64,000 nucleotides of DNA. Origin: Marinactinospora thermotolerans DSM 45154. GTDB taxonomy: Bacteria > Actinomycetota > Actinomycetes > Streptosporangiales > Streptosporangiaceae. The notes beneath the pieces were generated by a model. That model ran no database searches. It was not told the DNA's origin and saw only the letters and a list, made by a program, of their open reading frames with translations. Positions within the stretch are counted from its first letter, which is position 1, and each line of letters starts with the position of its first letter. Both the position numbers and the translations under genes were made by a program. Shown here one piece after another: positions 4,915 through 63,811 of this stretch. Location: contig NZ_FUWS01000002.1 in assembly GCF_900167435.1 (NCBI RefSeq), positions 111,924 to 175,923 of the forward strand. Reading direction: 5' to 3'.

Positions 4915-4923
4915 GGGAACCGT

Positions 4924-5859: not shown

Positions 5860-5963
5860 CTCTCCAGTGTGGCAGCGCGGACAGAGTGACCCGGTTCACC
5901 GAACATGTCGTCACATGGGCGGAGGGGCGGCCGGGACCACCGGCTCCTCCTAGGATGAGAGGC

Positions 5964-6782: not shown

Positions 6783-6799
6783 TCCGAACGAGGAGGGGC

Positions 6800-7783: not shown

Positions 7784-7926
7784 GGATCCCTGGGGGGAGG
7801 CTGGGGGATCAGCGAAGACCCCTTGACGGAGTAACATTTCCGAATTGTTCTATTAGTTACTTTAGGCCGTTCGGGTGCGGCGCGTTACCCTCGTGACGCC
7901 GGCGGCGCGACAGCGTTGGGGGACGG

Positions 7927-9639: not shown

Positions 9640-9642
9640 GCC

Positions 9643-10956: not shown

Positions 10957-10960
10957 GATC

Positions 10961-13846: not shown

Positions 13847-15451
13847 TCAGGGCATCTGCTCGTAGGCGGGCAGCGTCAGGAAGTCGGCGTAGTCCTCGGC
13901 CAGCGCGACCGTCGTGAACAGCTCCCTGGCCCGCTCGTAGAGGCCGGAGTCGAACGCCGCGCCGCTCGCCTCGCGGATCGCGGCCAGCTCCTCATCGATG
14001 ACCCGCTCGACCAGCTCCGGCGTGACCTTCGGGCCGTCGTCGAGGGTGACGTCGTTGTGCAGCCACTGCCAGATCTGGGAACGCGAGATCTCCGCGGTGG
14101 CGGCGTCCTCCATCAGATTGTGGATGGCCACCGCGCCGTTGCCGCCGATCCAGGCCGCGAGGTACTGCAGCGCGACGTTGACGTTCCCGCGCAGCCCGGC
14201 CTCGGTGATGCCGCCCTCGGCGCTGTCGACGGCGAGCAGGTCGCCGGCCTTCACCGTGACGTCCTCGCGGAGACGGTCGATCTGGTTGGGTCGTTCCCCC
14301 AGGACGCCGTCGAACACCTCGCGGGCGACGGGGACCAGGTCGGGGTGGGCGACCCAGGAGCCGTCGAAGCCGTCACCGGACTCGCGGGACTTGTCCTCGC
14401 GGACCTTCGCCAGCGCGCGCTCGTTGACCTCGGGGTCGCGGCGGCTGGGGATGAACGCCGCCATCCCGCCGATCGCGTGCGCGCCGCGCCGATGGCAGGT
14501 GCTCACCAGCAGCTCGGTGTAGGCGCGCATGAACGGCGCGGTCATGGTGACCGCGTTGCGCTCGGGCAGCAGGAAGCGGCGGCCACGGGTGCGGTGGGTC
14601 TTGATGATGCTGAAGAGGTAGTCCCAGCGTCCGGCGTTGAGGCCGGCGGAGTGCTCGCGCAGTTCGTAGAGGATCTCCTCCATCTCGAACGCGGCGGGGA
14701 TGGTCTCGATGAGGACCGTCGCGCGGATCGTGCCACGGGGGATGCCGAGGGCCTCCTGGGCGTGGACGAAGATGTCGTTCCACAGCCGGGCCTCAAGGTG
14801 GCTCTCCATCTTGGGCAGGTAGAAATAGGGTCCCTTGCCCTTGGCGAGCTGGCGGCGCGCGCAGTGGAAGAAGTACAGCGCGAAGTCGACGATGCCGCCG
14901 GAGGCGCGCTGGCCGTCGATGAGGATGTGCTTCTCGTCGAGGTGCCAGCCGCGTGGGCGCACGACGATCGTGGCGAGCTCGGAGTCGTCCTTCAGCGTGT
15001 AGCTCTTGCCCTGGGGCGTGGTGAAGTCGATGGCGCGGTCCAGCGCGTCCTTGAGGTTGAGCTGGCCGCCGATCATGTTCTCCCACAGCGGGGTGTTGGC
15101 GTCCTCGAAGTCGGCCAGCCAGACCTTGGCGCCGGAGTTGAGCGCGTTGATCGTCATCTTGCGGTCGGTGGGGCCGGTGATCTCCACCCGGCGGTCCACG
15201 ATGCCGGGGGCCGGCGGGGCGACCTTCCAGGTGGGGTCCTCGCGGATGCCCCGGGTCTCGGGCAGAAAGTCGAGGTCGGCTCCCGCGGCGATCTCCGCTT
15301 GGCGGCGCTTGCGCGCGGCGAGGAGCTCCTGGCGACGGCCCTCGAAGCGGCGGTGTAGGTCGGCGATGAGCGCGAGGGCGTCATCGGTGAGGATCTCGTC
15401 GTATCGCTCGTGCCGCGGGCCGGTGACCTCGACCCCGTTGGTGGCGCCCAT
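13847..15451 (-). CDS. aceB: Malate synthase A (AceB)
   Basis: Condenses glyoxylate with acetyl-CoA to malate. The 534-residue length and motifs fit form [12 protein letters not shown], the substrate loop [16 protein letters not shown], and [20 protein letters not shown] containing the catalytic Asp-type acid pair. ATG 15451 is chosen because the sequence from [12 protein letters not shown] on is family-like; the open frame extends further upstream without similarity. GGAAGG lies upstream. The promoter holds a pair of inverted TTCCACATA repeats matching sites near the purine genes, so an IclR-type regulator probably controls it. It heads the aceB-glcDEF set. Confidence 0.96.
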
Positions 15452-15464
15452 GACAGTCCATACC

Positions 15465-15499
15465 TTCCACATAGAGAAATTTGCTTCTGTTATGTGGAA
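15465..15499. promoter_or_regulatory. AllR/IclR-type double operator before aceB
   Basis: TTCCACATA at 15465-15473 and its exact inverse TATGTGGAA at 15491-15499. The right-hand site TTCCACATAGAGAAAT (15465-15480) is nearly identical to TTCCACATAGCGAAAT at 58944-58959 before hyi. Read on the minus strand, the far site gives TTCCACATAACAGAA. The position, 14-48 bp upstream of the aceB start, suits repression. Confidence 0.6.
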
Positions 15500-15752
15500 T
15501 ATGACGCTACTCTGCTCTTCGGGGGTGGTCAATGTTGTGACGGTGGTGGAGTGGCACCGAATTTCTTTTCAGGCGAAAGAAGATCGTTCTTTCCGCGAGA
15601 GCGGGCCGGGATATCCGTACTTCTCGCGATCCGCACAAGAGACTCGCGCCGGCGAGGGGGCTCGACCCCAGATGGAAAACCCGATGCTCGGGATTGGGTT
15701 GGCATGGGACCATCTCAGGGAAGAACTCGCGGTGGACCCGCGTTGACTCTGG

Positions 15753-48285: not shown

Positions 48286-49107
48286 TCAATTCTGGTGGTT
48301 GAGGTCGCCGGCCAGGCTGACCGCGGCGCGCTGCACGATCGGCGCGGCCCGGTCCACGAACTCCCAGTTCATCCGCGATTCGGGGCCGGAGATCGAGACC
48401 GCCATCATCGCCGGTCCGCCGAGCACCGGCACGGCCAGGCACCGGACGCCGATCTCCTGTTCGCCGTCATCGATGGCGTACCCGCGTTCCCGGATGCGGG
48501 CGAGCTCCGCCGCGAACGCCTCGGGGGTGGTGATGGTGCGGTCGGTGGCCGCGGGCATACCGGTGCGGCGCACGGTCGCCAGCGCCTCGGCCTCGGGGAG
48601 CTGGGCCAGCAGGGCCTTGCCCACGCCCGCCGAGTGGGGGAGCACCCGCCGGCCCACCTCGGTGAACATCCGCATGGCGTGGGGAGAGGGGACCTGGGCC
48701 ACGTAGACGACCTTGTCGCCGTCGAGCATGGCCAGGTTGGCGGTCTCGCCGAGTTCGTCCACCAGCTGGGCGAGGTGGGGGCGCGCCCAGGTGCCGAGCA
48801 TGCGGGACGCGCTCTCACCGAGCCCGATGAGGCGGGGACCCAGGGCGTAGCGTCGCGACGGGAGCTGGCGGACGTAGCCGTTGCCCAGCAGGGTGCGGAT
48901 GATGCGGTGGATCGTGGGGAGGGGAAGACCGGAGGAGCCGGCGAGCTGGCTCAGTGAGATCTCGCCGCCCGCGTCGGCCATGATCTCCAGCAGGGCGAAG
49001 GCCCGGTCGAGCGACTGGACGCCGCCCGACCGGTTCCTCGACTCGCTCTCCGCACCGGTCCCGCCGGTCGTCGTCTGTGGTGGCGTTGTCAAAGGTGTAG
49101 CTCCCAT
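48286..49107 (-). CDS. allR: IclR-family regulator of purine/allantoin genes (AllR-type)
   Basis: A 273-residue repressor. The N-terminal winged helix begins VQSLDRAFALLEIMADAGG with ISLSQLAGSSGLPLPTIHRI, and the C-terminal IclR effector domain contains HSAGVGKALLAQLPE, EEIG-like DDGEQEIGVRCLAVPV and the end SISGPESRMNWE. ATG 49107. It is divergent from the CitE-like/allB pair. In Streptomyces the allantoin genes are controlled by the IclR-family repressor AllR whose effector is a pathway intermediate; the neighbours and repeated operator sites support the same role here. Confidence 0.88.
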   Translation of the reverse strand: MGATPLTTPPQTTTGGTGAESESRNRSGGVQSLDRAFALLEIMADAGGEISLSQLAGSSGLPLPTIHRIIRTLLGNGYVRQLPSRRYALGPRLIGLGESASRMLGTWARPHLAQLVDELGETANLAMLDGDKVVYVAQVPSPHAMRMFTEVGRRVLPHSAGVGKALLAQLPEAEALATVRRTGMPAATDRTITTPEAFAAELARIRERGYAIDDGEQEIGVRCLAVPVLGGPAMMAVSISGPESRMNWEFVDRAAPIVQRAAVSLAGDLNHQN

Positions 49108-49287
49108 CGCGTGACCACTCCGACCGGCCGTTCCGGCTCACGGCCACTCGGTTCGGAGTTCTCATTCTGCGATACGGAAGCCGAGCCCGCTAATCCCGAT
49201 CGTGGCTCGGTACCGACCGCTGCCATCTGCGGAAGTCCCCTGTGGCGCCCCTTGTTTCGGGAGGCTCCGCCGTACTGCCTCTTGTTG

Positions 49288-49323
49288 TTCCGAATTGTAG
49301 AAGTTAATGTCCGCTATATAGAA
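49288..49323. promoter_or_regulatory. Tandem AllR-type operator, 21-bp phasing
   Basis: TTCCGAATTGTAGAAGTTA at 49288-49306 and GTCCGCTATATAGAAGTTA at 49309-49327 are direct repeats exactly 21 bp apart (two helical turns), 60-100 bp upstream of the CitE-like start. They share the TTCC-N8-GAA pattern with sites before aceB and in the uraD/hyi region. Confidence 0.6.
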
Positions 49324-49385: not shown

Positions 49386-50684
49386 GTGGTTGAGCAGGAC
49401 TCCCTGGCCGGCGCGGCCGACGTGGCCGGTATCGGCCTGTCCGAACTCGGCGACGCCCTCGACACGAGGCTCGCCGACGCCGACGCCCGCCTCCTTCGCG
49501 GCTATCCCGGCGACCGGGGCCGCCGCCAACCGGTCCACACCGTCTACGTCCCCGCCGACGCGATCCGCCCCGGACTCGCCGCCGAATGGGGACGTCGGGC
49601 GCTGGCCTGCCTGGACGAGCACGCCCCCGACACCGCGACCCTCGCCGCGGCCACCGGCCTGGACGAGGCGGCCGTCGCCGACTGCCTGCCCCGGGTCCGG
49701 GCCAAACTCCAGACCGAACCCGTCGAGGACCTGCGCATCGACCTGGAGGACGGTTATGGCGCCCGGCCCGACGAGGAAGAGGACGCCCACGTGACCGCGG
49801 CGGCCGAAGCCCTGTGCGCCGACCTGGCCGAGGGCACGGCCCCGCCCTACTGGGGCATCCGCATGAAGGGGATGGAGTCCGCCGGCCGCAGGCGGGGCCT
49901 GCGCAGCCTCGGACTGTTCCTGCGCACCGTGCTGGAGCGGGCCGGGGGGCTGCCCGACGGGTTGACGCTCACCCTGCCCAAGATCACCGCGGTCGAGCAG
50001 GTCGAGGCGATGGCCTGGCTCACCGCGGAGCTGGAGAAGCGGTTCGGCCTGGCGGAAGGCGACCTCACCTTCGAGCTGCAGATCGAGACGCCGCAGTCCA
50101 TCCTCTCCCACGACGGCGTGGCCGCCGTCGCCCGCATGGTGCACGCGGCGCCCGGCCGGGTCACGGCCCTGCACTACGGCACCTACGACTACAGCGCCGC
50201 CTGCGGGGTCACCGCGGCCTTCCAGAGCATGGCCCATCCGGCCGCCGACCACGCCAAGGCCGTCATGCAGCTCGCCGCCGCCGGAACCGGCGTGTGGCTG
50301 TCCGACGGTTCCACCAACGTGCTCCCGGTCGGTGACACGGCCCAGGTGCACGCCGCCTGGCGGCTGCACGCCGGGCTCGTCCGCCGGTCCCTGGAACGGG
50401 CCTACTACCAGGGCTGGGACCTGCACCCGCATCAGCTGCCGACACGCTACCTGGCCACCTACGCCTTCTACCGCGAGGCGTTCGAGCCCGCCGCCGAACG
50501 CCTCAAGGCCTACCTGGGCGCGGCCGGCGGCGCCATCATGGACGAGCCCGCCACGGCCCAGGCGCTGGCCTCGGCCCTGGTCCGGGGCCTGCACTGCGGG
50601 GCGTTGGGCGACGACGAGGTCGCCGCGGCGGCGGGGGTGTCACGCTCGGAGCTGGAGGGCTTCGCCAACCGCAGGGTGGGCTGA
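49386..50684 (+). CDS. CitE/HpcH-HpaI-like lyase family protein (DUF6986-type) in allantoin operon
   Basis: A 432-residue protein from GTG 49386, 38 bp upstream of allB and apparently in its operon. It shows the CitE-superfamily barrel landmarks: [10 protein letters not shown] (metal-binding acid pair), [23 protein letters not shown] and [14 protein letters not shown]. These enzymes catalyse Mg-dependent C-C bond cleavage or formation, such as malyl-CoA lyase, citrate lyase beta and malate synthase. The protein is distinct from these and its reaction is not established. Homologues are found next to allantoinase in streptomycetes. A role in the ureidoglycolate/glyoxylate step is possible. Confidence 0.8.
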
Positions 50685-50722: not shown

Positions 50723-52075
50723 ATGCCGGAGCAGGCCCACGACCTGGTGATACGGGCCCGACGCGCGATCACCCCCGAAGGAGAGCGCGCGATCGCCGTG
50801 GCCGTGCGCGACGGGCGCATCACCGCGATCACCGACTACGACACCCCGCCTGCGGCGGCGCGCACCGTGGAGGTCGCCGCCGACGAGGTGCTGCTTCCCG
50901 GCCTGGTGGACAGCCACGTCCACGTCAACGACCCCGGACGCAGCGAGTGGGAGGGGTTCGCCACCGCCACCCGCGCCGCGGCGGCCGGCGGGGTCACCAC
51001 GATCATCGACATGCCGCTCAACAGCATCCCGCCCACGACAACGGTCGACGGGCTGGAGGCCAAGCGCGCGGTCGCGCGCGGCAACGTCCTCATCGACGTG
51101 GGGTTTTGGGGCGGTGCCGTGCCCGAGAACAGCGGGCCGGCCACGACCAAGGAGCTGCGCGCGTTGCACGAGCAGGGGGTCTACGGCTTCAAGTCGTTCC
51201 TCTCGCCCTCGGGCGTGGATGAGTTCGGTCACCTGTCCCCCGAGGAGTTCCGCGTCGCGGCCGAGGCGATCGGCGAGTTCGGCGGCGTGCTCATCGTGCA
51301 CGCCGAGGATCCCCGCGTGCTCGACGCCGCGCCGCCGGCGTACGGTCGCGACTACGCCTCCTTCCTCGCCTCGCGCCCCGACGAGGCCGAACACGCGGCG
51401 ATCCGGCTGGTCATCGACACCGCGCGGGCCACCGGTACCCGTTGTCACATCCTGCACCTGTCCAGCGCGACGGCGTTGCCGATGATCCGCGCGGCGCGAG
51501 AGGAGGGGGTCCCCCTCACGGTCGAGACGTGCCCGCACTACCTGACGATCGCCGCGGAGGAGGTGCCGGAGGGAGCGACCCAGTTCAAGTGCTGTCCGCC
51601 CATCCGGGGAAGCGCCAACCGCGATCAACTCTGGGAGGCGCTGCGCGAAGGGGTGATCGACTGCATCGTCAGCGACCACTCGCCGAGCACGGTCGACCTG
51701 AAGAACCTCGACACCGGTGACTTCGGGACGGCCTGGGGCGGCATCTCCGGGGTGCAGGTGGGCTTCTCCACGGTGTGGACGGAAGCGTCGGCGCGCGGAT
51801 TCCCCCTCGCCGAGGTCGTCGAGTGGATGGCGCGGCGGCCGGCCGAGATCGCCGGTGTCGACGGCAAGGGCGGGCTGGTCGTCGGCAACGACGCCGACTT
51901 CGCGGTCGTCGCCCCCGACGAGGTGGTGCGTCTGGACGTCGCCGAGCTGCACCACAGGAACCCGATCAGCGCCTACGACGGCCGTCAGGTGCGCGGGGTC
52001 GTGCGCGCCACCTGGTTGCGCGGCGAGCTGGTCGACCCGGCCGAGCCGAAGGGGCGCCTGCTGAGCCGGGGGTGA
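50723..52075 (+). CDS. allB: Allantoinase AllB
   Basis: Hydrolyses allantoin to allantoate. The 450-residue amidohydrolase has [17 protein letters not shown] (metal HxH), [17 protein letters not shown], the carboxylated-Lys segment [22 protein letters not shown], and [10 protein letters not shown] with the catalytic Asp. ATG 50723 with GAGGAA upstream. It follows the CitE-like gene and is opposite in strand to the uricase operon. Dihydropyrimidinase is an alternative of the same fold, but the motifs and neighbours fit allantoinase. Confidence 0.95.
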
Positions 52076-53316: not shown

Positions 53317-54828
53317 TCAGGTGCGTGAAGGCGCCTCGTCCGACGGGGTCGGCGGGGACCCGGCCCCGTCGGAGAGGTCCCCGGACGTGGCGTCGCGCGC
53401 CTGCGGGGCCTCCTCGCGCGCGTCCTCCTCCGGGTACTCCTTGTCCAGGGTCGGGGCCGCGGCGAACACCGACGGACCCTCCTCGTACTGGCCGCCGCCG
53501 ATGATGTTGAAACAGATGTTGAGCACGATCGCGACGACCGCCGCGCCCACGATGCCCGAGTGCAGGATGAGCGCCAACCAGTCGGGGAAGCCGTCGTAGA
53601 ACTGCGGCACCGCCATCGGGATGATGCCGAAGCCGAGCGAGGTGGCGACGATGATCAGGTTCAGGTTGTTGTCGAAGTCCACCTTGCCGAGCGTCCGGAT
53701 GCCGCTGGCCGCGACGGTGCCGAACAGGACGAGCCCGGCGCCCCCCAGGACCGGCATGGGGATCGCCGCCACCACGCGGCCCAGGATCGGGAACAGGCCC
53801 AGCAGGATCAGCATCAGCGCGCCGGTCGCCACGACGTAGCGGCTCCTGATCCTGGTCAGCGCGATCAGACCGATGTTCTGGGCGAAGGAGCTGCCCGGGG
53901 TGCTGTTGAAGAGCGGGCCGATGATGGAGGCGCTCACGTCGGCGCGCAGCCCGGCCGCGATCCGCTTGCTGTCGATGCGGGTGCCGATGATCTCCCCCAC
54001 CGCGATGATGTGCGAGGCGCCCTCGGTGAGGACGACCAGCATGATCACGCACATGGTCAGGATCGCCGCGAGGTCGAAGACCGGGAGACCGAAGTACAGG
54101 GGCGAGCCGAGGGAGAACACCGCGCCATCACCGACCTGGCTGAAGTCGGCCTTGCCGAAGGGGACCGCGATGAGCGTCCCGGCGAGCAGGCCCAGCAGGA
54201 TCGAGATACGGCTGAGCAGCCCGGGAAGGACCCGCGAGAACAGCAGGACCAGGCCCAACGTGGCACCGGCCAGGGCCAGGTCGGACAGCGCCGGCATGCC
54301 GTCCGCGGCGCCGTTGACGACCCAGTTGGCCGCCACGGGCATCAGCGACAGGCCGATGACGGTGATGAGGCTGCCGGTCACCACCGGTGGGAAGAACCGT
54401 ACGAGCTGCCCGAAGAAGGGGGTCAGGCAGAACGCGAACAGGCCGCCCACCAACGACGCGCCGAACACGACGGGGAGCCCCTGGTCGGCGTCCGCGGCGA
54501 TGGCCGTCATCGCGCTGACCGGGACGAAGGAGGAACCGACGACGATCGGCATCTGCGCGCCGATACGCAGCACCCCCGTCGTCTGCAACAGGGTGGCGAT
54601 GCCGGCGACCAGGAGCGCGCCACTGACCAGGACGCCCAGTTCGGGACCGTCCAGACCGGCCGCGGCGCCGATGACCAGGGCGGGGGCGACCGCGCCGGCG
54701 TACATGGTGAGGATGTGCTGCAAGCCGTAGAGGACGAGCAACCGGGGTGGAAGCCTCTCGTCCTCCGGGCGGGAGGAGGGGGTGGCGGCCGAGGCCGGGG
54801 GGACGTGCGCGTTCTTGCGGAATCTCAT
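53317..54828 (-). CDS. NCS2-family purine/xanthine/urate permease, copy 1
   Basis: A 503-residue nucleobase symporter with about 14 membrane spans. The NAT signature region reads QNIGLIALTRIRSR; other marks are SSFVPVSAM, FFPPVVTGSLITVIGLSL and PMPVLGGAGLVLFGT. The C-terminus (~50 residues) is acidic and cytoplasmic. ATG 54828. It imports xanthine, urate or a related purine with protons. It lies 134 bp downstream of a close paralogue and at the end of the uraD-hiuH-uricase-permease row. Confidence 0.92.
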   Translation of the reverse strand: MRFRKNAHVPPASAATPSSRPEDERLPPRLLVLYGLQHILTMYAGAVAPALVIGAAAGLDGPELGVLVSGALLVAGIATLLQTTGVLRIGAQMPIVVGSSFVPVSAMTAIAADADQGLPVVFGASLVGGLFAFCLTPFFGQLVRFFPPVVTGSLITVIGLSLMPVAANWVVNGAADGMPALSDLALAGATLGLVLLFSRVLPGLLSRISILLGLLAGTLIAVPFGKADFSQVGDGAVFSLGSPLYFGLPVFDLAAILTMCVIMLVVLTEGASHIIAVGEIIGTRIDSKRIAAGLRADVSASIIGPLFNSTPGSSFAQNIGLIALTRIRSRYVVATGALMLILLGLFPILGRVVAAIPMPVLGGAGLVLFGTVAASGIRTLGKVDFDNNLNLIIVATSLGFGIIPMAVPQFYDGFPDWLALILHSGIVGAAVVAIVLNICFNIIGGGQYEEGPSVFAAAPTLDKEYPEEDAREEAPQARDATSGDLSDGAGSPPTPSDEAPSRT

Positions 54829-54962: not shown

Positions 54963-56408
54963 TCAGCTCGGTGGGGCCGACGGTGCTTCGGCGGGTCGGG
55001 GACCCGCCTCACCGCCGAGGGGGAGGTCCCCGGCGGTCGCCTGGTGGGGGACGATCGGGGCCGGCGTCGCGCGCGGGCCGATCACGTTGAACACGATGTT
55101 GAGCAGGACGGCGACGACACTGGCGCCGATGATGCCCGAGCCGAGGATGGTGGCGGCCCAGCCGGGGAAGGCGTCGTAGAAGCCGGGCACGGCCACGGGG
55201 ACGATGCCGACCCCGATCGAACAGGCCGCGATGATCAGGTTGAGCCCGTTACCGCCGAAGTCGACCGTGCCGAGCGTGCGCACCCCGCTGATCGCGATCG
55301 TGCCGAACAACAGCAGGGCCGCACCGCCCAGCACCGGCATGGGGATGATCGCGATGACCCGGCCCAGCACGGGGAACAGGCCGAGCAGCACGAGCGTGGC
55401 GCCTCCGGTGGCCACGACGAAGCGGCTGCGCACACCGGTCAGCGCGATGACACCGATGTTCTGGGCCAGCACACCACAGGGAAAGGAGTTGAACAGCGGG
55501 GCGAACAGGGCCGAACCCGCGTCGGCGCGCAGGCCGTCGGCGATGCGCCGCCGGTCGATGGGGGTCCCGATGACCTGGCCCACCGCGAGGGTGTCGGCCG
55601 TTCCCTCGGTGAGGATGACCAACATGACCACGCACATGGTCACGATCGGCACCAGGTCGAACTCCGGCAGGCCGAAGTAGAGCGGCTGGCCGAAGGAGAA
55701 CACCGGCCCTTCCAGGACCGAGCCGAAGTCGACCCGGCCGAAGGGGACCGCGATCACGGTGCCCAACACCAGACCGAGCAGGACCGACATGCCGGCCAGG
55801 GAGGGCGGCAACAGCCGGTACAGCACCAGCATGATCAGCAGGGTGATGCCGCCCAGGGCGAGGTTGGACAACGAGGGATGCCCCGAAGCCTCCCCGTCGA
55901 TGATCCAGTTCGCGGCGACGGGCAGCAGCGACAGGCCGATGACGGTGATGACGCTTCCGGTCACCACCGGGGGGAAGAAACGCAGCAGGGCGGCGAAGAA
56001 GGGGGCGATGAGCACCCCGAACACGCCGGCCGCGAACGTCGCGCCGAAGACCACGGGCAGGCCGCGCTCCTCGGCGAAGGTGGCCATGATGCCCAGGGGG
56101 ACGACGGAGATGCCCACGACCATGGGCAGCCGCGCGCCGAAACGCCACACGCCCAGCGTCTGGAGCAGCGTGGCCAGTCCGCACACGAGGAGCGCGCCGC
56201 TGACGAGGACCCCCAGCGCTGCCGTGTCGAGTCCGGCCGCGGCCCCGATGACCAGGGGAGGGGTGGCGACCCCCGCGTACATCGTGACGATGTGCTGGAG
56301 GCCATAGGCGAACAGAAGCCGGGGCGCGAGCCGTTCGTCCTCGGGACGGTCCGTCGGGGACGCCGGGGGACGGTCGGCCTTCACGGGGGTGCGGGTCTTC
56401 CTGAACAA
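54963..56408 (-). CDS. NCS2-family purine/xanthine/urate permease, copy 2
   Basis: A 481-residue paralogue of the neighbour, sharing RPEDERL.PRLL, YGLQHI.TMYAG and the same order of spans. The NAT signature differs: QNIGVIALTGVRSR, with Gly where copy 1 has Arg, at a position that varies between specificity groups. Start is taken as TTG 56408, which follows AAGGGG and makes the N-terminus (FRKTRTP) match copy 1 (RFRKNAH); GTG 56384 is the alternative. It lies 223 bp downstream of the uricase gene. Confidence 0.91.
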   Translation of the reverse strand: MFRKTRTPVKADRPPASPTDRPEDERLAPRLLFAYGLQHIVTMYAGVATPPLVIGAAAGLDTAALGVLVSGALLVCGLATLLQTLGVWRFGARLPMVVGISVVPLGIMATFAEERGLPVVFGATFAAGVFGVLIAPFFAALLRFFPPVVTGSVITVIGLSLLPVAANWIIDGEASGHPSLSNLALGGITLLIMLVLYRLLPPSLAGMSVLLGLVLGTVIAVPFGRVDFGSVLEGPVFSFGQPLYFGLPEFDLVPIVTMCVVMLVILTEGTADTLAVGQVIGTPIDRRRIADGLRADAGSALFAPLFNSFPCGVLAQNIGVIALTGVRSRFVVATGGATLVLLGLFPVLGRVIAIIPMPVLGGAALLLFGTIAISGVRTLGTVDFGGNGLNLIIAACSIGVGIVPVAVPGFYDAFPGWAATILGSGIIGASVVAVLLNIVFNVIGPRATPAPIVPHQATAGDLPLGGEAGPRPAEAPSAPPS

Positions 56409-56631
56409 TTCAGCCCCTTGGGATCGTGAGCGGCGGTGATACGGAGCACGGGATCCGTTGTCGCTCGCCGTCACCGAGAAATCGCTGTGAGTGATCGTCG
56501 GAGGGTGTGGGCGGGACGCGCACGGACGACAGCGGGGCCGGTGCGCGGCCGGACGGACGGGGCGTGGGGGCGGCCGATCACCGCCCGCCGGAGGGGGCGC
56601 GGTCCCGGGGGCCGGGACCGCGCCGGACCGG

Positions 56632-57525
56632 TCAGATGAAGCCGGGAACGGTCTCCCAGACGCGACCGGCCGCGGGGGCGTCGTCGCGTTCGATGGTGGC
56701 CTCGATCTTTCCGTAGGAGCGGTCGGAGGCGAAGAACACCTCGTTCGGGTTGTCCAGGCCGAACGGCGACAGGTCAACCACGAAGTGGTGCTTGTTCGGG
56801 CAGGAGAACTTGATCTCGGCGACCTCGGGGTGGGCCTCCAAGACGGCCTTGCCCATCTCCCACAGCGTCTGCTGGAGGGCGAGGCTGTGGTGGTTGGCGA
56901 AGGTCTCGATCAGGATCGCGCGGATGGACGCATAGGTCTTGTCCCAGTCGATGTCGGTGCCGATGTAGCGCCAGCGGGCCTTGACGTCGGTGGCCATGAC
57001 CCGGTCGGTCGTCTCGGCCAGGGTCGTGTATTCGGTCCGGGGGAAACCGTGGAACTCCGAGTCGGTCGTCTTGAGGACGGTGAGCCCCTCCAGGCCGGAG
57101 ATGACGGTCTCCTCGGCACCGTCCTTGACGACGACGGTGGTGCGGGTCTCGCGGCCGTCCCGGACGAAGGAGTGGTTGTGCGGACCCTCGGCGGTCGCGG
57201 CCCGGGTCCAGGTGTACTCCTCGATCTCCTGCCGCGCCCCGTGTACCTGCTCGAAGGTGTCCACGTGGTAACGGGCCAGGCGGAGCGCGAAGTCCTCGAT
57301 CGCGCCGACCCCGTACTTGCGGGCGAAGGCGTAGACGGTGTTCTTCTGCGTGTCGGTGGCGACACAGTGGGCGTTGTCGCCCTTGGTGTGCACCGCTTCG
57401 AAGTCGCCGCGCAGCTGGGAGGTGACGTTGACGTCCTTGATCGTGTGGACGTCGGTGTCCCGGTTGATGTGGACCAGGCGCACCTCGGCCTTGCCGTACT
57501 GGTTGTCTCCGAGACGGATTGCCAT
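56632..57525 (-). CDS. uox: Urate oxidase (uricase)
   Basis: Cofactor-free oxidase of 297 residues that converts urate to 5-hydroxyisourate. The active-site parts are present: YGKAEVRLVHI with the catalytic Lys, VATDTQKNTVYAFAR with the Thr-Asp pair, GFPRTEYTTL, and FSCPNKHHFVVDLSPFG near the C-terminus. ATG 57525; AAGGAG lies 11 bp upstream. Downstream of hiuH and uraD on the same strand, whose products finish the ring opening. Confidence 0.97.
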   Translation of the reverse strand: MAIRLGDNQYGKAEVRLVHINRDTDVHTIKDVNVTSQLRGDFEAVHTKGDNAHCVATDTQKNTVYAFARKYGVGAIEDFALRLARYHVDTFEQVHGARQEIEEYTWTRAATAEGPHNHSFVRDGRETRTTVVVKDGAEETVISGLEGLTVLKTTDSEFHGFPRTEYTTLAETTDRVMATDVKARWRYIGTDIDWDKTYASIRAILIETFANHHSLALQQTLWEMGKAVLEAHPEVAEIKFSCPNKHHFVVDLSPFGLDNPNEVFFASDRSYGKIEATIERDDAPAAGRVWETVPGFI

Positions 57526-57677: not shown

Positions 57678-58037
57678 CTAGCTGCCCCGGTAGGTGGAGA
57701 AGGAGAACGGGCTCAACAGCAACGGCACGTGGTAGTGCGCGTCCTCGTCGGTGAGCTCGAAGGTCACCGTCACCTCGGGATAGAACCCGCGCTGGCCGCT
57801 GGCGGCGAAGTAGGCGGCGGTGTCGAAGGTGATGCGGTAGCGGCCCGTGGCCAGGCGCTGCGGGCCGAGGTCGGCGACACGCCCGTCGGCGTCGGTGTCT
57901 CCCGTGGCGACCGTCGACCAGGCGCCGCGTCCGGCGTCGTCGGCGGCTTCCAGGCGCACCGGGACACCGCCGGCCGGCCGGCCGAGGGCGGCGTCGAGGA
58001 CGTGGGTGGTCACGTGGCTGCGAGTTCGGGCGTTCAC
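57678..58037 (-). CDS. hiuH: 5-hydroxyisourate hydrolase
   Basis: A 119-residue transthyretin-like enzyme that hydrolyses 5-hydroxyisourate to OHCU. Catalytic elements: SHVTTHVLDAALGRPAGG near the N-terminus, GRYRITFDT, and the diagnostic C-terminal YRGS. GTG 58037 overlaps the uraD stop as GTGA. Works between uricase and UraD. Confidence 0.96.
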   Translation of the reverse strand: MNARTRSHVTTHVLDAALGRPAGGVPVRLEAADDAGRGAWSTVATGDTDADGRVADLGPQRLATGRYRITFDTAAYFAASGQRGFYPEVTVTFELTDEDAHYHVPLLLSPFSFSTYRGS

Positions 58038-58561
58038 TGGTCGAGCACCTTTTCCACGCGCACGAGCGCGATCTTGCGGAGTTCGTCGGCGACGACCCTG
58101 GCCTCGGTGGCCGGGTCGTTGCCGAGCCGGTCGGTGAGGTCGGCGAGCAGCTCCTCGCCGGAGCGCCCGCTGGCACACACCAGGTAGATCTGTCCGAACC
58201 GGCGCTCGTATTCGGCGTTGGCGGCCTGGAAGGCGTCTCGGACATCGCTCCGTCCGGTGTCGACCCCCGCTTGTTCGCCGCGTGACCAGGCGGACTCGGT
58301 GTCGCGGCCCGTGGCGCGCTCGCCGATGCGGGGGTGGCGGGCCAGGGCCTTGGCGACCTCGTCGTCGGTGATGGTGCGGGCATGGGCGTCGGCGGCGGCG
58401 AAGAGCGCGGTCCGGTCGTTGAACGGCCGTTCGCGTTCCAGCGCCGTCACCCAGCGGTCGATGTCGAGGCAGCGGGCGAACTCGGTCTGGAACTCCTCGG
58501 CCGACAGCGCGTTGACGCGCGACAGTCCGGAGTCGACCCCCGTGTCGGTGCTCTCGGGCAT
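58034..58561 (-). CDS. uraD: OHCU decarboxylase
   Basis: A 175-residue helical enzyme that decarboxylates 2-oxo-4-hydroxy-4-carboxy-5-ureidoimidazoline to S-allantoin. The family marks ARHPRIGERA (catalytic His) and SRGEQAGV (Glu) are present, with the N-terminal FARCLDIDRWVTAL. ATG 58561 follows GGAGAG. First gene of the minus-strand urate operon; it faces the large operator region shared with hyi. Confidence 0.95.
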   Translation of the reverse strand: MPESTDTGVDSGLSRVNALSAEEFQTEFARCLDIDRWVTALERERPFNDRTALFAAADAHARTITDDEVAKALARHPRIGERATGRDTESAWSRGEQAGVDTGRSDVRDAFQAANAEYERRFGQIYLVCASGRSGEELLADLTDRLGNDPATEARVVADELRKIALVRVEKVLDQ

Positions 58562-58692: not shown

Positions 58693-58823
58693 TTTCGTAG
58701 TGCAGAAACTTCGTTTTGTATGACGGACTGTAGACCGGGCGGTCTGCGGGCTGTCAACACTTGAAGTGAGATGAATTGCGGTTCATGGCGACTTTGTTCA
58801 CAATGACGAAACTTCTGCGTACT
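58693..58823. promoter_or_regulatory. Divergent operator region between uraD and hyi
   Basis: The 418-bp gap (58562-58979) is AT-richer than its surroundings. It holds AGTGCAGAAACTTCGT at 58699-58714 and an inverted relative ACGAAACTTCTGCGTACT at 58806-58823. TTTCGTAGTGCAGAAA (58693-58708) fits the TTYC-N8-GAA pattern of the other sites. ATGAA/TTCAT arms at 58771-58786 form a further inverted repeat. Likely controls both operons. Confidence 0.5.
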
Positions 58824-58942: not shown

Positions 58943-58959
58943 ATTCCACATAGCGAAAT
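58943..58959. promoter_or_regulatory. AllR-type operator before hyi
   Basis: ATTCCACATAGCGAAAT, an imperfect palindrome; TTCCACATAGNGAAAT is shared with the aceB promoter (15465-15480). It lies 20 bp upstream of the hyi start and just before GGAGG. Confidence 0.65.
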
Positions 58960-58979: not shown

Positions 58980-59780
58980 ATGAGCCACACGCTGCGCTAC
59001 ACGGCGAACTGCTCGCTGCTGTTCACCGAGCTGCCCGTGAACGAGCGGCCGGCCGCCGCTGCCGCCGCCGGGTTCGACGCGGTGGAGTTCTGGTGGCCCT
59101 TCGCCCGGCCTGTTCCCGGCGACGCCGAGGTCGACGCCTTCGTCACCGCGATCACCGACGCGGGAGTCCGGCTCACCGGCCTGAACTTCTACGCCGGTGA
59201 GATGCCCGGCCCCGATCGGGGGGTGCTCTCCCTGCCGGATCGGGCCCAGGAGTTCCGGGACAACGTCGACGTCGTCGTCGACATCGCCCGGCGCACCGGG
59301 GTGGCCGCCTTCAACGCGCTGTACGGTCTGCGCCAGGACGGGATCGACCCGGCGGAACAGGACCGGATCGCCCTGGAGAGCATCGGCATCGCGGCGGCGG
59401 GGGTCGCCGCCGTGGGCGGCACCGTCCTCATCGAGCCCATCAGCGGCGCCGACGCCTACCCGTTGTCGACCGCGGCCGACGCGCTGCGGGTCGTCGCCGC
59501 CGCGCACGCCGCCGGCGCGCCCAACGTCGCCCTGCTCGCCGACTTCTTCCACCTCGCCGCCAACGGGGACGACGTCGCCGCCGTGGTGGACGCCCACGCC
59601 GCGGAGTTCGGCCACATCCAGATCGCCGACTTCCCCGGACGGGGCGAGCCCGGAACCGGCACGCTCCCCCTCGACGAGCTCCTCGGCGCCGCCCAGACCA
59701 AGGGGTACGACGGGTACGTCGGGCTGGAGTACAAGCCGACCGTGTCCAGCGCCGAAAGCCTCGGTTGGCTCAAGCGCTGA
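58980..59780 (+). CDS. hyi: Hydroxypyruvate isomerase
   Basis: A 266-residue xylose-isomerase-like TIM barrel that interconverts hydroxypyruvate and tartronate semialdehyde. It starts RYTANCSLLFTELPVNERPAA in family style; active-site glutamates lie in GGTVLIEPISGADAYPL and YVGLEYKP, and NFYAGEMPGPDRG is characteristic. ATG 58980 with GGAGG upstream. First gene of the plus-strand hyi-glxR-gcl-alc operon. Confidence 0.93.
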   Translation: MSHTLRYTANCSLLFTELPVNERPAAAAAAGFDAVEFWWPFARPVPGDAEVDAFVTAITDAGVRLTGLNFYAGEMPGPDRGVLSLPDRAQEFRDNVDVVVDIARRTGVAAFNALYGLRQDGIDPAEQDRIALESIGIAAAGVAAVGGTVLIEPISGADAYPLSTAADALRVVAAAHAAGAPNVALLADFFHLAANGDDVAAVVDAHAAEFGHIQIADFPGRGEPGTGTLPLDELLGAAQTKGYDGYVGLEYKPTVSSAESLGWLKR

Positions 59781-59812
59781 ACAGGACCGCATCCGTCAGG
59801 AAGGAAACGTCA

Positions 59813-60718
59813 ATGCCCCAGGCGCACAAGGTCGCCTTCATCGGACTCGGCATCATGGGCCTGCCGATGGCGGTCAACCTGGTCAAGGCCGGTTTCGCCG
59901 TCACCGGTTACAACCGCTCGCCCCACAAGGCCGAACAGCTCGCGCAGCAGGGCGGGAAGGCCGCGAGCTCCGTCGCCGAGGCGGTGCGCGACGCCGACGT
60001 CGTCATCACGATGGTGCCCGACTCGCCCGACGTCGAAGAGGTGCTCCTCGGCGAGGACGGCGTGTTCGCCAACGCCGCCCCCGGGACCCTCGTCATCGAC
60101 ATGAGCACCATCCGCCCCGACGTCTCCCGCGAGCTGGCCCGGGCCGGAGCCCAGCGGGGGCTGCGCGTCCTGGACGCGCCGGTGAGCGGCGGCGAGGCGG
60201 GCGCCATCGAGGCGAAGCTGTCCATCATGGTCGGAGGGGAGGAGGCCGACTTCGCCGCGGCCGAGCCGGTCTTCTCCGCCCTGGGCACCACCTGTGTCCA
60301 CGTCGGCCCCGCGGGCTCCGGCCAGACCGTCAAGGCGGCCAACCAGCTCATCGTCGCCGGCAACATCCAACTGGTCGCCGAGGCACTGGTGTTCCTGGAG
60401 GCCCACGGCGTCGACACGGAGGCCGGCCTGAGGGTCCTCAACGGAGGACTGGCCGGCAGCACGGTGCTGACCCGTAAGGGCGAGGCGATGCGCAACCGCG
60501 AGTTCCAGCCGGGGTTTCGCGTCGAACTGCACGACAAGGACATGAAGATCGTGACGACCGCCGCGCGTGAGGCGGGGGTGAGCATCCCCGTGGGGGCGCT
60601 GGTCGCCCAGTTCGTGGGCGCCCTCAAGGCACAGGGCCACGGCGGGCTCGACCACTCCGCGCTGCTCAAGCTCGTCGAACAGCTCTCCGGATCCGAGCGC
60701 GGCCGACCGCGCGGATGA
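59813..60718 (+). CDS. glxR: Tartronate semialdehyde reductase (2-hydroxy-3-oxopropionate reductase)
   Basis: A 301-residue beta-hydroxyacid dehydrogenase that reduces tartronate semialdehyde to glycerate with NAD(P)H. It has the dinucleotide fold AFIGLGIMGLPMAVNLVKAG, the substrate loop DAPVSGGEAGAIEA, the catalytic Lys in VKAANQLIVAGN and HDKDMKIV. ATG 59813 after AGGAAGGAAA; 32 bp downstream of hyi. Its substrate is made by the glyoxylate carboligase downstream. Confidence 0.94.
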   Translation: MPQAHKVAFIGLGIMGLPMAVNLVKAGFAVTGYNRSPHKAEQLAQQGGKAASSVAEAVRDADVVITMVPDSPDVEEVLLGEDGVFANAAPGTLVIDMSTIRPDVSRELARAGAQRGLRVLDAPVSGGEAGAIEAKLSIMVGGEEADFAAAEPVFSALGTTCVHVGPAGSGQTVKAANQLIVAGNIQLVAEALVFLEAHGVDTEAGLRVLNGGLAGSTVLTRKGEAMRNREFQPGFRVELHDKDMKIVTTAAREAGVSIPVGALVAQFVGALKAQGHGGLDHSALLKLVEQLSGSERGRPRG

Positions 60719-60859
60719 GACGGGTCGCCGCCGGCGGGACTGGCGGGACGGTCTCGCGTCTTACGTGTGCTCCGCGCGAGATCCGGCCGCCTGGGTGTTG
60801 GCCGCACCACGGTTCCGCCGGCGGAACCCCAACCCCCTAGCACTGAAGGGTTTGCCACC

Positions 60860-62584
60860 ATGGTACAGATGCCCGCGATGAACGCCGTCGTCGAGGTGAT
60901 GAAGTCCGAGGGCGTCGACACGGCGTTCGGATGCCCCGGCGCGGCGATCCTCCCCCTCTACAAGGCGCTTGAGGAGGTCGGCGGAATCGAGCACCTGATC
61001 GTCCGCCACGAGGAGGGCGCCACCCATATGGCCGACGGCTGGGCGCGCACCAGCGGCCGGGTCGGCGTCGCCATCGGAACCTCGGGTCCGGCCGGGACGA
61101 ACATGATCACCGGCCTGTACACCGCGTTCGCCGACTCCATCCCGATCGTCTGCATCACCGGCCAGGCGGTCTCGACCAAGCTGCACCAGGAGGCCTTCCA
61201 GGCCGTCGACATCGTCGAGATCGCCAAACCGGTCACCAAGTGGGCGGTGCAGATCAAGGAGGCCGCCCAGGCCCCGTGGATCTTCCGCGAGGCCTTCAGG
61301 ACCGCCCGCGAGGGACGTCCCGGTCCGGTCCTCATCGACATCCCGCTCGACGTCGCCCAGCAGATCATCACCTATGACCCGAAGATCGACGCCCCGCTCC
61401 CGGTCGCCGCGGTCCAGCCCCACCAGCCCAGGGTCGAACGCGCCCTCGACATGCTGCTGGCCGCCCAACGGCCCCTGATCCTGGCGGGCGGCGGTGTGAT
61501 CATCGCCGACGCGGCCGAGGAACTGCGCGAACTCGCCGAATACCTCAACATCCCGGTCCAGGTCACCCTCATGGGCAAGGGCGCCATCGACGAGAACAGC
61601 CCGCTGTTCTCCGGTATCACCGGCATCCAGACCTCGCAGCGCTACGGCAACGCCTCCTTCCTGGAGTCCGACCTGGTCCTGGCCGTGGGGGCGAGGTTCG
61701 GCGACCGCCACACCGGTCGGCTCGACGTCTACCGAGGCGACCGGGCCTTCATCCACGTCGACATCGAGCCGACCCAGATCGGCAAGGTCTTCGAACCGGA
61801 CCTGGGCGTCGTCTCCGACGCGCGACTGTTCCTGCGCGCCCTCCTCGACCTGGCGAGGAAGCGCGGCGCGGGCCGGCCGGCCGGAGCCTGGGTCGAGCGC
61901 GTCGGGGAACTCAAGCGGACGCTGGGCCGCCGTGAGGACTTCGACACCACCCCGATCAAGGCGCCTCGCGTCTACAAGGAGATCAACGAGGTCTTCGGCG
62001 CCGACACCTACTTCGTCACCGCCATCGGCCTCTACCAGATCTGGGGCGGGCAGCACCAGAAGGCGTTCAAACCGCGCCACTACCAGATCTGCGGCCAGGC
62101 GGGCCCGCTGGGCTGGGAGATCCCGGCCGCGATCGGGGTGAAGAAGGCCCTGAAGAACACCGAACCCGACGCCGAGGTGGTCGGGATCGTCGGAGACTAC
62201 GGCTTCCAGTACATGGTCGAGGAGCTCGCCGTCGGCGCCCAGTACAACGTGCCGTTCGTCCTCGTCATGCTCAACAACGAGTACCTCGGGCTGATCCGCC
62301 AGGCCGAGATCCCGTTCGAGATGAACTACCAGGTCGACATCCACTACGACGAGTTCGGCACCGACAACGTCAAGATCATGGAGGCCTACGGCTGCTCGGG
62401 GCGGCGCGTCGCCGATCCGGCCGAGATCAGGCAGGCCCTGGAGTGGGCGCGCAAGGAGGCCGAGGCGACCTCCCGGCCGGTGCTGGTCGAGATCATGATC
62501 GAGCGCGAGGCCAACACCCCGCACGGCCCGTCGATCGACGCGGTCAAGGAGTTCGAACCGCTGCCCGACGAGGCCGCGCTCTAG
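60860..62584 (+). CDS. gcl: Glyoxylate carboligase-like ThDP enzyme
   Basis: A 574-residue thiamin diphosphate enzyme that should join two glyoxylates to tartronate semialdehyde and CO2. The order is as in Gcl: GCPGAAILPLYKALEE, IGTSGPAGTNMITGLYTA, VHVDIEPTQIGKVF, NCGQ-like ICGQAGPLGWEIPAAIGV, and the ThDP/Mg motif VGDYGFQYMVEELAVGAQYN then NNEYLGLIRQAE. ATG 60860. An oddity is RHEEGATHMADGW: residue 51 is Glu, whereas E. coli Gcl is noted for having Val51 (RHVEGASH) instead of the usual ThDP-activating Glu. Acetolactate-synthase-like activity is therefore possible, but operon and overall sequence favour Gcl. Confidence 0.88.
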   Translation: MVQMPAMNAVVEVMKSEGVDTAFGCPGAAILPLYKALEEVGGIEHLIVRHEEGATHMADGWARTSGRVGVAIGTSGPAGTNMITGLYTAFADSIPIVCITGQAVSTKLHQEAFQAVDIVEIAKPVTKWAVQIKEAAQAPWIFREAFRTAREGRPGPVLIDIPLDVAQQIITYDPKIDAPLPVAAVQPHQPRVERALDMLLAAQRPLILAGGGVIIADAAEELRELAEYLNIPVQVTLMGKGAIDENSPLFSGITGIQTSQRYGNASFLESDLVLAVGARFGDRHTGRLDVYRGDRAFIHVDIEPTQIGKVFEPDLGVVSDARLFLRALLDLARKRGAGRPAGAWVERVGELKRTLGRREDFDTTPIKAPRVYKEINEVFGADTYFVTAIGLYQIWGGQHQKAFKPRHYQICGQAGPLGWEIPAAIGVKKALKNTEPDAEVVGIVGDYGFQYMVEELAVGAQYNVPFVLVMLNNEYLGLIRQAEIPFEMNYQVDIHYDEFGTDNVKIMEAYGCSGRRVADPAEIRQALEWARKEAEATSRPVLVEIMIEREANTPHGPSIDAVKEFEPLPDEAAL

Positions 62585-62656: not shown

Positions 62657-63811
62657 ATGTCATTGAGTGACCAGGAGTTCCTCCGGTACCCCGACCTCGC
62701 CCTCCGCTCCTTTGGCGGCGCCGTCGTCTACGCCAACGACGAGTCCTTCGCCGAGCGGGAGAACCTCATCAAGCCCACGGCGCCCTTGTTCGACGAGACG
62801 GACTTCGGCCACAAGGGCAAGGTGTACGACGGGTGGGAGACCCGACGGCGGAGGACTCCCGGGCACGACTGGGCCATCGTCAGACTGGGCGCGCCCGGCG
62901 TGATCCACGGCGTGGTGGTCGACACCGCCTGGTTCAAGGGCAACTACCCGCCCGAGGTCTCGGTCGAGGCGGCGGGTTTCGAGGGGTACCCCACCGTCGA
63001 GGAGCTCAACGCCGCCGAGTGGACCACGATCGTGCCACGGTCGCCGGTCCAGGGGCACCACGCCAACGTGTTCACGGTCACCGACGACCGCCGCTACACC
63101 CACGTCCGGCTCACCATGCACCCCGACGGCGGGATCGCCCGGTTGCGGGTGCACGGCGAGGCCATCACCGATCCGCGGCTGCTCGTCGCCGGAGGGCTGG
63201 ACCTCGTCGCCCTGGAGAACGGCGGCCGGGTCACCGGGTGCAGCAACGAGTTCTACTCCTCGCCCACCAACCTCATCGCCCCTGGACTGACCCGCACCAT
63301 GGGGGAGGGGTGGGAGAACGCGCGCCGCCGCGACGACGGCAACGACTGGGTGGAGTTCCAGCTCGCCGGCTGTGGCGAGGTGCGGCTGCTCGAACTGGAC
63401 ACCAGCTACTTCCTGTTCAACGCGCCCGGGGCGGCCCGGGTCACCGGATGCGACGAGACCGTCTCCGACCCGGCCGACCCGGACTCCTGGTTCACCGTGC
63501 TGGAACGCACCGAGCTGCTCCCCGACACCCGCCACCGTTTCGTGGTGGCCGATCCCCGTCCCGCGACCCGGCTGCGCCTGGACGTCTACCCCGACGGCGG
63601 GCTGGCCCGGTTCCGGGCGGTGGGCGAGCTGTCGGCGGAGGGTCGCTCCGCGCTGTGGCTGCGCTGGGCCAACGCCCTGCCCGAGGCGCAGCTGCGCGCC
63701 GCCTTGAACGCGGCGGGCCTCACGGGGGACCAGGCCGAGCAGGCGCTCGCGAGCCGCCCCTTCGACAAGGCGGACGCGATTCCCGCCGAACTGACCGGGG
63801 GCGCGTTCTGA
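62657..63811 (+). CDS. alc: Allantoicase
   Basis: A 384-residue enzyme that hydrolyses allantoate to ureidoglycolate and urea. It has the two allantoicase repeats, each with a WETRRRR/WENARRR and TAWFKGNYPPE/TSYFLFNAPGA pair, plus VRLTMHPDGGIARLRVHG and RLDVYPDGGLARFRAVG. ATG 62657 follows AGGAGAG. A C-terminal ~50-residue helical tail (LPEAQLRAALNAAGLTGD) extends the core. Last gene of the hyi operon, followed by a strong terminator. The product ureidoglycolate has no identified enzyme in the window. Confidence 0.95.
   Translation: MSLSDQEFLRYPDLALRSFGGAVVYANDESFAERENLIKPTAPLFDETDFGHKGKVYDGWETRRRRTPGHDWAIVRLGAPGVIHGVVVDTAWFKGNYPPEVSVEAAGFEGYPTVEELNAAEWTTIVPRSPVQGHHANVFTVTDDRRYTHVRLTMHPDGGIARLRVHGEAITDPRLLVAGGLDLVALENGGRVTGCSNEFYSSPTNLIAPGLTRTMGEGWENARRRDDGNDWVEFQLAGCGEVRLLELDTSYFLFNAPGAARVTGCDETVSDPADPDSWFTVLERTELLPDTRHRFVVADPRPATRLRLDVYPDGGLARFRAVGELSAEGRSALWLRWANALPEAQLRAALNAAGLTGDQAEQALASRPFDKADAIPAELTGGAF

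Follow-up and report, generated by a model that had tools for sequence, protein, structure and literature searches.

A DUF6986 protein with a predicted malyl-CoA-lyase-type fold as candidate ureidoglycolate-cleaving enzyme of actinobacterial allantoin catabolism

Allantoin breakdown in M. smegmatis has been described as far as ureidoglycolate and urea, and the part of that account available to us leaves the next enzyme unnamed (PMC4617892). The protein discussed here resembles CitE-like enzymes. For the R. sphaeroides malyl-CoA lyase, the sections of the report available to us list D42, E44, D45, R76, E141, D168 and D299 in the active site and supply the roles used below for these residues; they also place an alanine before the metal-binding aspartate in malyl-CoA lyases and describe the characterised CitE-like enzymes as users of CoA or ACP thioesters (PMC3832036). 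The family of our protein, DUF6986, is named in no paper found in a literature search that left most subscription papers outside its scope, and searches combining ureidoglycolate or allantoin with actinobacterial or citrate-lyase terms gave no enzyme assignment among the matches listed. The AllR regulon of Streptomyces coelicolor, reportedly studied in 2015, may already include the DUF6986 gene.

The DNA analysed, referred to as the window, is a stretch of 64,000 nucleotides from Marinactinospora thermotolerans DSM 45154. A preliminary description held that it encodes the steps from urate to ureidoglycolate and from glyoxylate to glycerate, that no known ureidoglycolate enzyme is present, and that a CitE-like enzyme in the allantoinase operon might act on ureidoglycolate or glyoxylate. 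Protein family models find all the genes of these two routes, Hyi falling below its curated cut-off, and the CitE-like gene does lie in an operon with allantoinase, allB beginning 38 bp past its stop codon. The genes are as follows.

13847 to 15532, minus strand: canonical malate synthase A, true start probably further in (PF01274, 373 bits; PF20659; PF20656)
48286 to 49107, minus strand: IclR-type regulator, divergent from the DUF6986 gene (nearest NCBIfam models BhcR and IclR, both below cut-off)
49386 to 50684, plus strand: DUF6986 (PF22484) gene, predicted ureidoglycolate lyase of CitE/malyl-CoA-lyase fold, 432 residues, GTG start
50723 to 52075, plus strand: allantoinase AllB, operon partner of DUF6986 (TIGR03178, 561 bits)
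53317 to 54828, minus strand: xanthine/uracil-type permease (PF00860, 297 bits)
54963 to 56777, minus strand: xanthine permease, the open reading frame exceeding the gene (TIGR03173, 453 bits)
56632 to 57525, minus strand: urate oxidase, start set at the methionine of MAIRLGDNQYG (TIGR03383, 350 bits)
57678 to 58040, minus strand: 5-hydroxyisourate hydrolase, HIUH (TIGR02962, PF00576)
58034 to 58561, minus strand: OHCU decarboxylase (PF09349, 152 bits)
58980 to 59780, plus strand: hydroxypyruvate isomerase-like Hyi (TIGR03234, 255 bits, under the curated cut-off of 353)
59810 to 60718, plus strand: tartronate semialdehyde reductase GlxR (TIGR01505, 390 bits)
60767 to 62584, plus strand: glyoxylate carboligase Gcl (NF008431, 908 bits)
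62657 to 63811, plus strand: allantoicase Alc, with ureidoglycolate and urea as products (TIGR02961, 379 bits; PF03561)

The malate synthase, absent from the preliminary description, carries three Pfam malate synthase domains, so the window also covers the conversion of glyoxylate to malate.

We propose, with a probability of roughly two in three, that DUF6986 is the ureidoglycolate-cleaving enzyme of actinobacterial urate and allantoin catabolism and yields glyoxylate and urea. The reaction is deduced from the family, the predicted fold, the conservation of the Mg site, the operator, the operon partners, the phylogenetic profile and the absence of those known enzymes that were searched for; a role at ureidoglycolate is well supported by context.

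The open reading frame has a GC3 of 0.94. Its product belongs to PF22484, which it matches with 617.8 bits (cut-off 27) over profile positions 1–407 of 408, and it is 53–76% identical to 56 aligned relatives. The general HpcH/HpaI model of Pfam reaches just 25 bits, neither the malate synthase A/G barrel (PF01274) nor AllA (PF04115) matches at E ≤ 0.01, and the NCBIfam model of haloarchaeal malyl-CoA lyase, NF041626, scores 24.1 bits, below its cut-off of 500. Of two sequence searches against solved structures in the PDB, one returned a single chance-level match and the other none. Relatives lie on five plasmid records, three of which label the protein 'aldolase/citrate lyase family protein', a name silent on purines, while two have no feature there. 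Elsewhere in the genome (G000:C36:1272-1967, L001) is a CitE/malyl-CoA-lyase-like paralogue with CitE motifs.

An AlphaFold2 model made from 57 sequences (pLDDT 87.8) predicts the TIM barrel and C-terminal lid of the CitE-like superfamily. The top match in VIA-align 2 is 4l9y, the Mg- and glyoxylate-containing structure of R. sphaeroides malyl-CoA lyase (Z 26.8, rmsd 2.6, 290 aligned positions, 19% identity), followed by other malyl-CoA lyases, human CLYBL, haloarchaeal malate synthase (24.4) and malate synthase A (3cv2, 23.8); several matches fall within 1 of the top Z and are hence tied. The CitE-type active site of the preliminary description is borne out: the LEDGYG and QIETPQ motifs are found, and D119, E121, D122, R159, E234, D268 and D386 are invariant in 111 of 111 sequences, a set that includes the window protein twice, as are G123 and T235. 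The relative in locus L155, from another class, retains the seven site residues. By shared motifs the seven correspond in order to those of the R. sphaeroides lyase, the alignment having used six CoA lyases and CitE relatives other than that protein itself. On this correspondence E234 and D268 would be the Mg ligands, the D-x-E-D acids would hold waters and the arginine, R159 would be catalytic and D386 would belong to the lid.

The predicted structure also has features of its own. Some 58 residues with three predicted helices link strands 1 and 2, as opposed to one short helix in CoA lyases, and the residue before the metal-binding aspartate is mostly tyrosine (Y267). In the alignment the loop after strand 1, which in CoA lyases has a motif of the type VPG-x-N-P-R, is remodelled by an insertion, yet hhalign sets part of this loop in DUF6986, 'LPRVRAKL', against the CoA-lyase helix 'NPRFIEKA', so CoA binding may be either kept or lost.

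That characterised relatives act on thioesters counts against a lyase for ureidoglycolate, and it is possible, if unlikely, that DUF6986 instead consumes glyoxylate in a CoA-dependent condensation with acetyl-CoA or another acyl-CoA, in the manner of malyl-CoA lyase or malate synthase H, and feeds malic enzyme. In predicted fold and in catalytic residues the protein agrees with both malyl-CoA lyases and haloarchaeal malate synthase, and its length is near that of the latter, 433 residues according to the part of the report available (PMC3112382). Against such a condensation stands the remodelled loop; moreover, it would leave the ureidoglycolate step unfilled. Context cannot fully separate the making of glyoxylate from its use, because the same genomes make it, and gene content and gene order, considered below, bear on the choice.

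A profile scan of the window finds a 15-bp IclR-type palindrome with the consensus TTCCGTATAGCAGAA, located as follows.

15465 to 15499, no strand assigned: two operator sites, at 15465 and 15485, at the 5' end of the malate synthase open reading frame (profile scores 10.4 and 10.8)
49165 to 49179, minus strand: operator site TTCCGTATCGCAGAA, between iclR and DUF6986 (profile and strict pattern)
49288 to 49302, plus strand: operator site TTCCGAATTGTAGAA, 83 bp upstream of the DUF6986 start codon (profile and strict pattern)
58693 to 58707, no strand assigned: operator-like site upstream of the OHCU decarboxylase, HIUH and uricase genes (profile score 16.6; missed by the strict pattern)
58944 to 58958, plus strand: operator site TTCCACATAGCGAAA, upstream of hyi-glxR-gcl-alc (profile and strict pattern)

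The shared operator of the preliminary description is found as IclR-type 15-mers at 49165, 49288, 58693 and 58944, and the two malate synthase sites are an addition to it. The site at 58693 fits the strict pattern, TTCCRNATNRNRRAA, most poorly of these four. Six matches to this pattern occur in the 5.66-Mb genome, of which five are window sites and are not independent, the pattern having been derived from five of the six; a reversed control pattern has no match in the whole genome. No canonical ureidoglycolate enzyme, which under the same operator was to have counted against the proposal, is among the six matches genome-wide. The sixth (G000:C33:610864-610878, L162) lies on another contig, away from purine genes, and has no recognised target. 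Four profile matches in the window score at least 11, against 0, 0, 1, 0 and 1 in five mononucleotide shuffles.

The consensus was drawn after viewing the window and some of the loci. Two tests come close to being independent: the single additional match counted genome-wide, and the unlinked DUF6986 genes of Streptomyces-like loci. Twenty-four such loci (genus g31) have no allantoin gene within roughly 4 kb, and two Streptomyces loci (L058, L065) are alike. A site with three mismatches or fewer lies within 250 bp upstream of DUF6986 in 16 of the 24, where dinucleotide shuffles, the source of all expected operator counts here, predict 0.10. The same holds for 16 of 20 Nocardiopsaceae loci (0.10 expected), and over all DUF6986 loci, the window's own included, such a site is present in 46 of 110 and lacking in 64 (0.48 expected). 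In six Streptomyces-like allantoin clusters an operator-type site lies between allB and an orthologous regulator (65–69% identical) in every case. A further site lies close to the start of the malate synthase gene in all six, 595–621 bp ahead of where the barrel model matches.

Absence of linkage in these loci, together with an electron-transfer-flavoprotein gene in 16 of the 24 (checked by model in L017), would suit a CitE paralogue that merely hitch-hikes near purine genes in other genomes by chance and has no part in purine breakdown. We regard this as very improbable and already contradicted, given that 16 of the 24 unlinked copies keep the operator and that the phylogenetic profile holds inside and outside the class. 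Judged from the sites, a small regulon seems to take in the steps from allantoin down to glyoxylate together with the two routes that consume glyoxylate, and the urate genes probably belong to it as well. Within this regulon DUF6986 is the enzyme that lacks an assigned role, and ureidoglycolate cleavage is the step that lacks an enzyme.

The statement that no known ureidoglycolate enzyme is encoded extends from the window to the genome for AllA, AllD and AllE, since profile searches of the whole genome give no match to PF04115 (AllA type), to TIGR03175 (AllD) or to AllE. Oxidation of ureidoglycolate by AllD was rejected on this ground. A single M20 carbamoylase-type amidase passes the cut-off of TIGR01879; its best NCBIfam match is a model for allantoate amidohydrolase (644 bits). 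It is flanked by hutH and hutF/hutI (G000:C13, L161, about 4452-11790), and because of this location it probably serves histidine catabolism; it was set aside as a ureidoglycolate amidohydrolase, and an annotation that places it in purine breakdown may mislead. Another ureido-cleaving enzyme, either the M20 protein or a distant amidohydrolase, may exist in the genome.

The phylogenetic profile was drawn from 296 genomes of the class, a strong DUF6986 match being one with E ≤ 1e-20, a threshold picked after a gap was seen above the weak matches of CitE paralogues (about 1e-4 to 1e-14). DUF6986 occurs in 120 genomes, allantoicase in 104, AllE in 22 (over cut-off only, with weak cupin matches in 49 further genomes), the last two together in none, and malate synthase in 198, omitting two matches under the family cut-off. 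Of the 126 genomes that encode allantoicase or AllE, 118 have strong DUF6986, and of the remaining 170, 2 do; by route, it accompanies allantoicase in 96 of 104 genomes and AllE in 22 of 22. The two extras are a genome with a broken fragment that was counted as strong (G134) and one in about 850 contigs (G133). Thus 118 of the 120 class genomes with DUF6986 make ureidoglycolate by one route or the other. AllA-type enzymes are rare there: PF04115 matches in 5 of 296, once strongly, in a genome without DUF6986 (G099), and four times weakly, in genomes that carry it.

The association persists when genomes are stratified by family. Twelve families contain both matched states and 14 genera vary internally; in the stratified count, which covers the 265 labelled genomes of the 296 and skips single-genome families (5 of the 118), 113 co-occurrences are observed where 86.3 would be expected (z 11.2). 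The unstratified Fisher value ignores kinship. Families f4 and f17 hold both routes and DUF6986 accompanies each. Among 181 genomes outside the class, strong DUF6986 is found in 7 of 8 with allantoicase and in none of 173 others; one incomplete genome with two small pieces (G307, 86% complete, 1.9e-14) was scored as lacking it, and the eighth allantoicase genome, with that gene on a 4.5-kb contig (G373), has no strong match. A ureidoglycolate lyase should be present where ureidoglycolate is made, and this is what is seen inside and outside the class. The allantoicase and AllE routes are unrelated and share only ureidoglycolate onward. The profile therefore indicates a role in the conversion of this compound or further down the pathway.

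Eight class genomes with allantoicase have no strong DUF6986, six of them from one genus, so some organisms manage without it, and we count this against the lyase reading. No DUF6986 match occurs in nine stretches taken from such genomes. Two of the genomes, in about 190 and 1200 contigs (G015, G253), have AllB-Alc-HIUH clusters. In the genus concerned a relative of the PuuE allantoinase is present in four of seven stretches, identified by model in one. Loci L127-L129 and L131 (G003, G043, G140 and G267) have a PuuE-type allantoinase and an NCS1 permease nearby, the models having been run on L129, and some of them have a gene that by eye resembles hydantoin racemase.

Ureidoglycolate decays without an enzyme. 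DUF6986 might therefore act on another compound of the pathway, racemising ureidoglycolate or clearing adducts of glyoxylate with urea or amines, with ureidoglycolate left to spontaneous decay or to an unrecognised enzyme. The six allantoicase genomes of one genus, which lack PF04115 as well as strong DUF6986, fit such an accessory role, yet for such a role DUF6986 is a remarkably constant partner of the pathway (118 of 126), and no other unassigned enzyme, as judged by eye, recurs to the same degree in the neighbourhoods viewed. We think an accessory role improbable, rather more so than a CoA-dependent condensation, and return to DUF6986 as the cleaving enzyme.

Neighbouring genes, named by eye and confirmed by model on representatives (malate synthase A, AllE, malic enzyme, glycerate kinase, 8-oxoguanine deaminase, an HTH protein and electron transfer flavoprotein alpha), were counted by tblastn in 80 named loci with flanks up to 6 kb. 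IclR is found in 50 loci, AllB in 41, uricase in 37, HIUH in 31, OHCU decarboxylase in 30, AllE in 29 (directly downstream of DUF6986 in 24), Hyi in 21, Alc in 17 and Gcl in 13. Genes of the upper pathway occur without malate synthase or Gcl in 52 loci, both kinds in 19, only the latter in 4 and neither in 5, and AllB with Alc or AllE and DUF6986, again with neither malate synthase nor Gcl in these flanks, in 30. Such short flanks can miss gcl, which in the window itself lies about 10 kb from DUF6986.

Of seven loci from outside the class, L152, L153 and L154 have allB, alc, OHCU decarboxylase, HIUH, uricase and DUF6986, with no match to malate synthase, Gcl, Hyi or GlxR in the fetched DNA, and read like a complete pathway from urate to glyoxylate with DUF6986 as its last enzyme. 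L151 and L155 have the same set minus a uricase match, L156 has DUF6986, OHCU decarboxylase and AllB, and L157 has DUF6986, a regulator, GlxR and uricase.

Some loci have unusual genes. In L070 a hydroxypyruvate-isomerase-like domain is fused to AllB in one open reading frame of 715 residues (8093-10240; both domains matched by model), with similar frames in L073, L075 and L094, and a second CitE/RipC-like lyase gene, under the models' cut-offs, follows the purine cluster (10323-11168), with equivalents in the same three Arthrobacter loci. The AllE-type gene beside DUF6986 in L088 (7146-8102) passes the NCBIfam model of a bifunctional allantoicase/(S)-ureidoglycine aminohydrolase, so clusters of this type may need no separate AllC.

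Gene order also bears on a CoA-dependent use of glyoxylate. Malic enzyme is found in 22 of the 80 loci, directly upstream of DUF6986 in 15 (for example L063, checked by model, L078 and L083), which would fit an enzyme that makes malate and suggests that glyoxylate is routed via malate to pyruvate. However, malate synthase is itself in 15 loci, directly upstream of DUF6986 in all of them, and in this genome the canonical enzyme has the same operator. It is present in 119 of the 120 class genomes with DUF6986 and in all ten genomes examined, which represent 10 of the 15 loci where malic enzyme occurs without malate synthase, and of 73 genomes with malate synthase and neither allantoicase nor AllE just two carry DUF6986. 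Replacement of malate synthase, which the size of the haloarchaeal enzyme might have suggested, was rejected as the main reading, since DUF6986 accompanies the canonical enzyme. Of the two roles offered by the preliminary description, then, the ureidoglycolate step is favoured by the profile, and carbon–carbon chemistry at glyoxylate is disfavoured by the operator of malate synthase and by its presence in nearly all DUF6986 genomes.

How might such a site cleave ureidoglycolate? Mg2+ would be bound by E234 and D268, with its waters and R159 ordered by D119, E121 and D122. In malyl-CoA lyase a site of this type holds glyoxylate, or the hydroxy-acid portion of malyl-CoA, at its Mg, and ureidoglycolate is an alpha-hydroxy acid, so we infer that the metal would chelate its alpha-hydroxyl and carboxylate in the same way. 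Deprotonation of the hydroxyl towards R159 would allow the C-N bond to break in a retro-aldol-like step, the leaving urea being protonated by the lid aspartate D386 or by another invariant residue. CoA would not be required, and the glyoxylate would pass to Gcl-Hyi-GlxR and to malate synthase under the same operator. (S)-Malyl-CoA corresponds in shape to (R)-ureidoglycolate, and allantoicase and AllE yield the (S) form. The leaving group would therefore have to be placed differently or the acid flipped, and the placement in malyl-CoA lyase cannot simply be copied.

We judge it probable, with slightly less assurance than for the role itself, that DUF6986 constitutes a further, unrelated ureidoglycolate-cleaving family in which a malyl-CoA-lyase-type site carries out CoA-free C-N cleavage and serves both the allantoicase and the AllE routes. 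If true, a Pfam domain of unknown function, found across genera such as Streptomyces, Nocardiopsis, Arthrobacter and Kribbella, gains a precise function, a pathway gap closes in many actinobacteria, and a C-N lyase joins a superfamily hitherto associated with C-C chemistry on acyl-CoA.

Among known systems, the malyl-CoA lyases of R. sphaeroides (4l9y) and C. aurantiacus (4l80) have in common with the DUF6986 model the TIM barrel and C-terminal lid, and their DLED, Arg, Glu, Asp and lid-Asp site is kept. DUF6986 differs in being about 100 residues longer, with additional helices predicted between strands 1 and 2, in having Y267 in place of alanine, and in its allantoin context. The haloarchaeal malate synthase H (3oyz, 3oyx) is similar in length, in predicted fold and in the kind of Mg/glyoxylate site, whereas there is no significant sequence match to DUF6986 in the PDB searches and almost every DUF6986 genome already owns a PF01274 malate synthase. 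The malate synthase A of the window shares with DUF6986 the operator type and a related barrel, but is of a separate family and present besides it. The reaction proposed for DUF6986 is that of AllA, which is of another Pfam family that is rare in the class.
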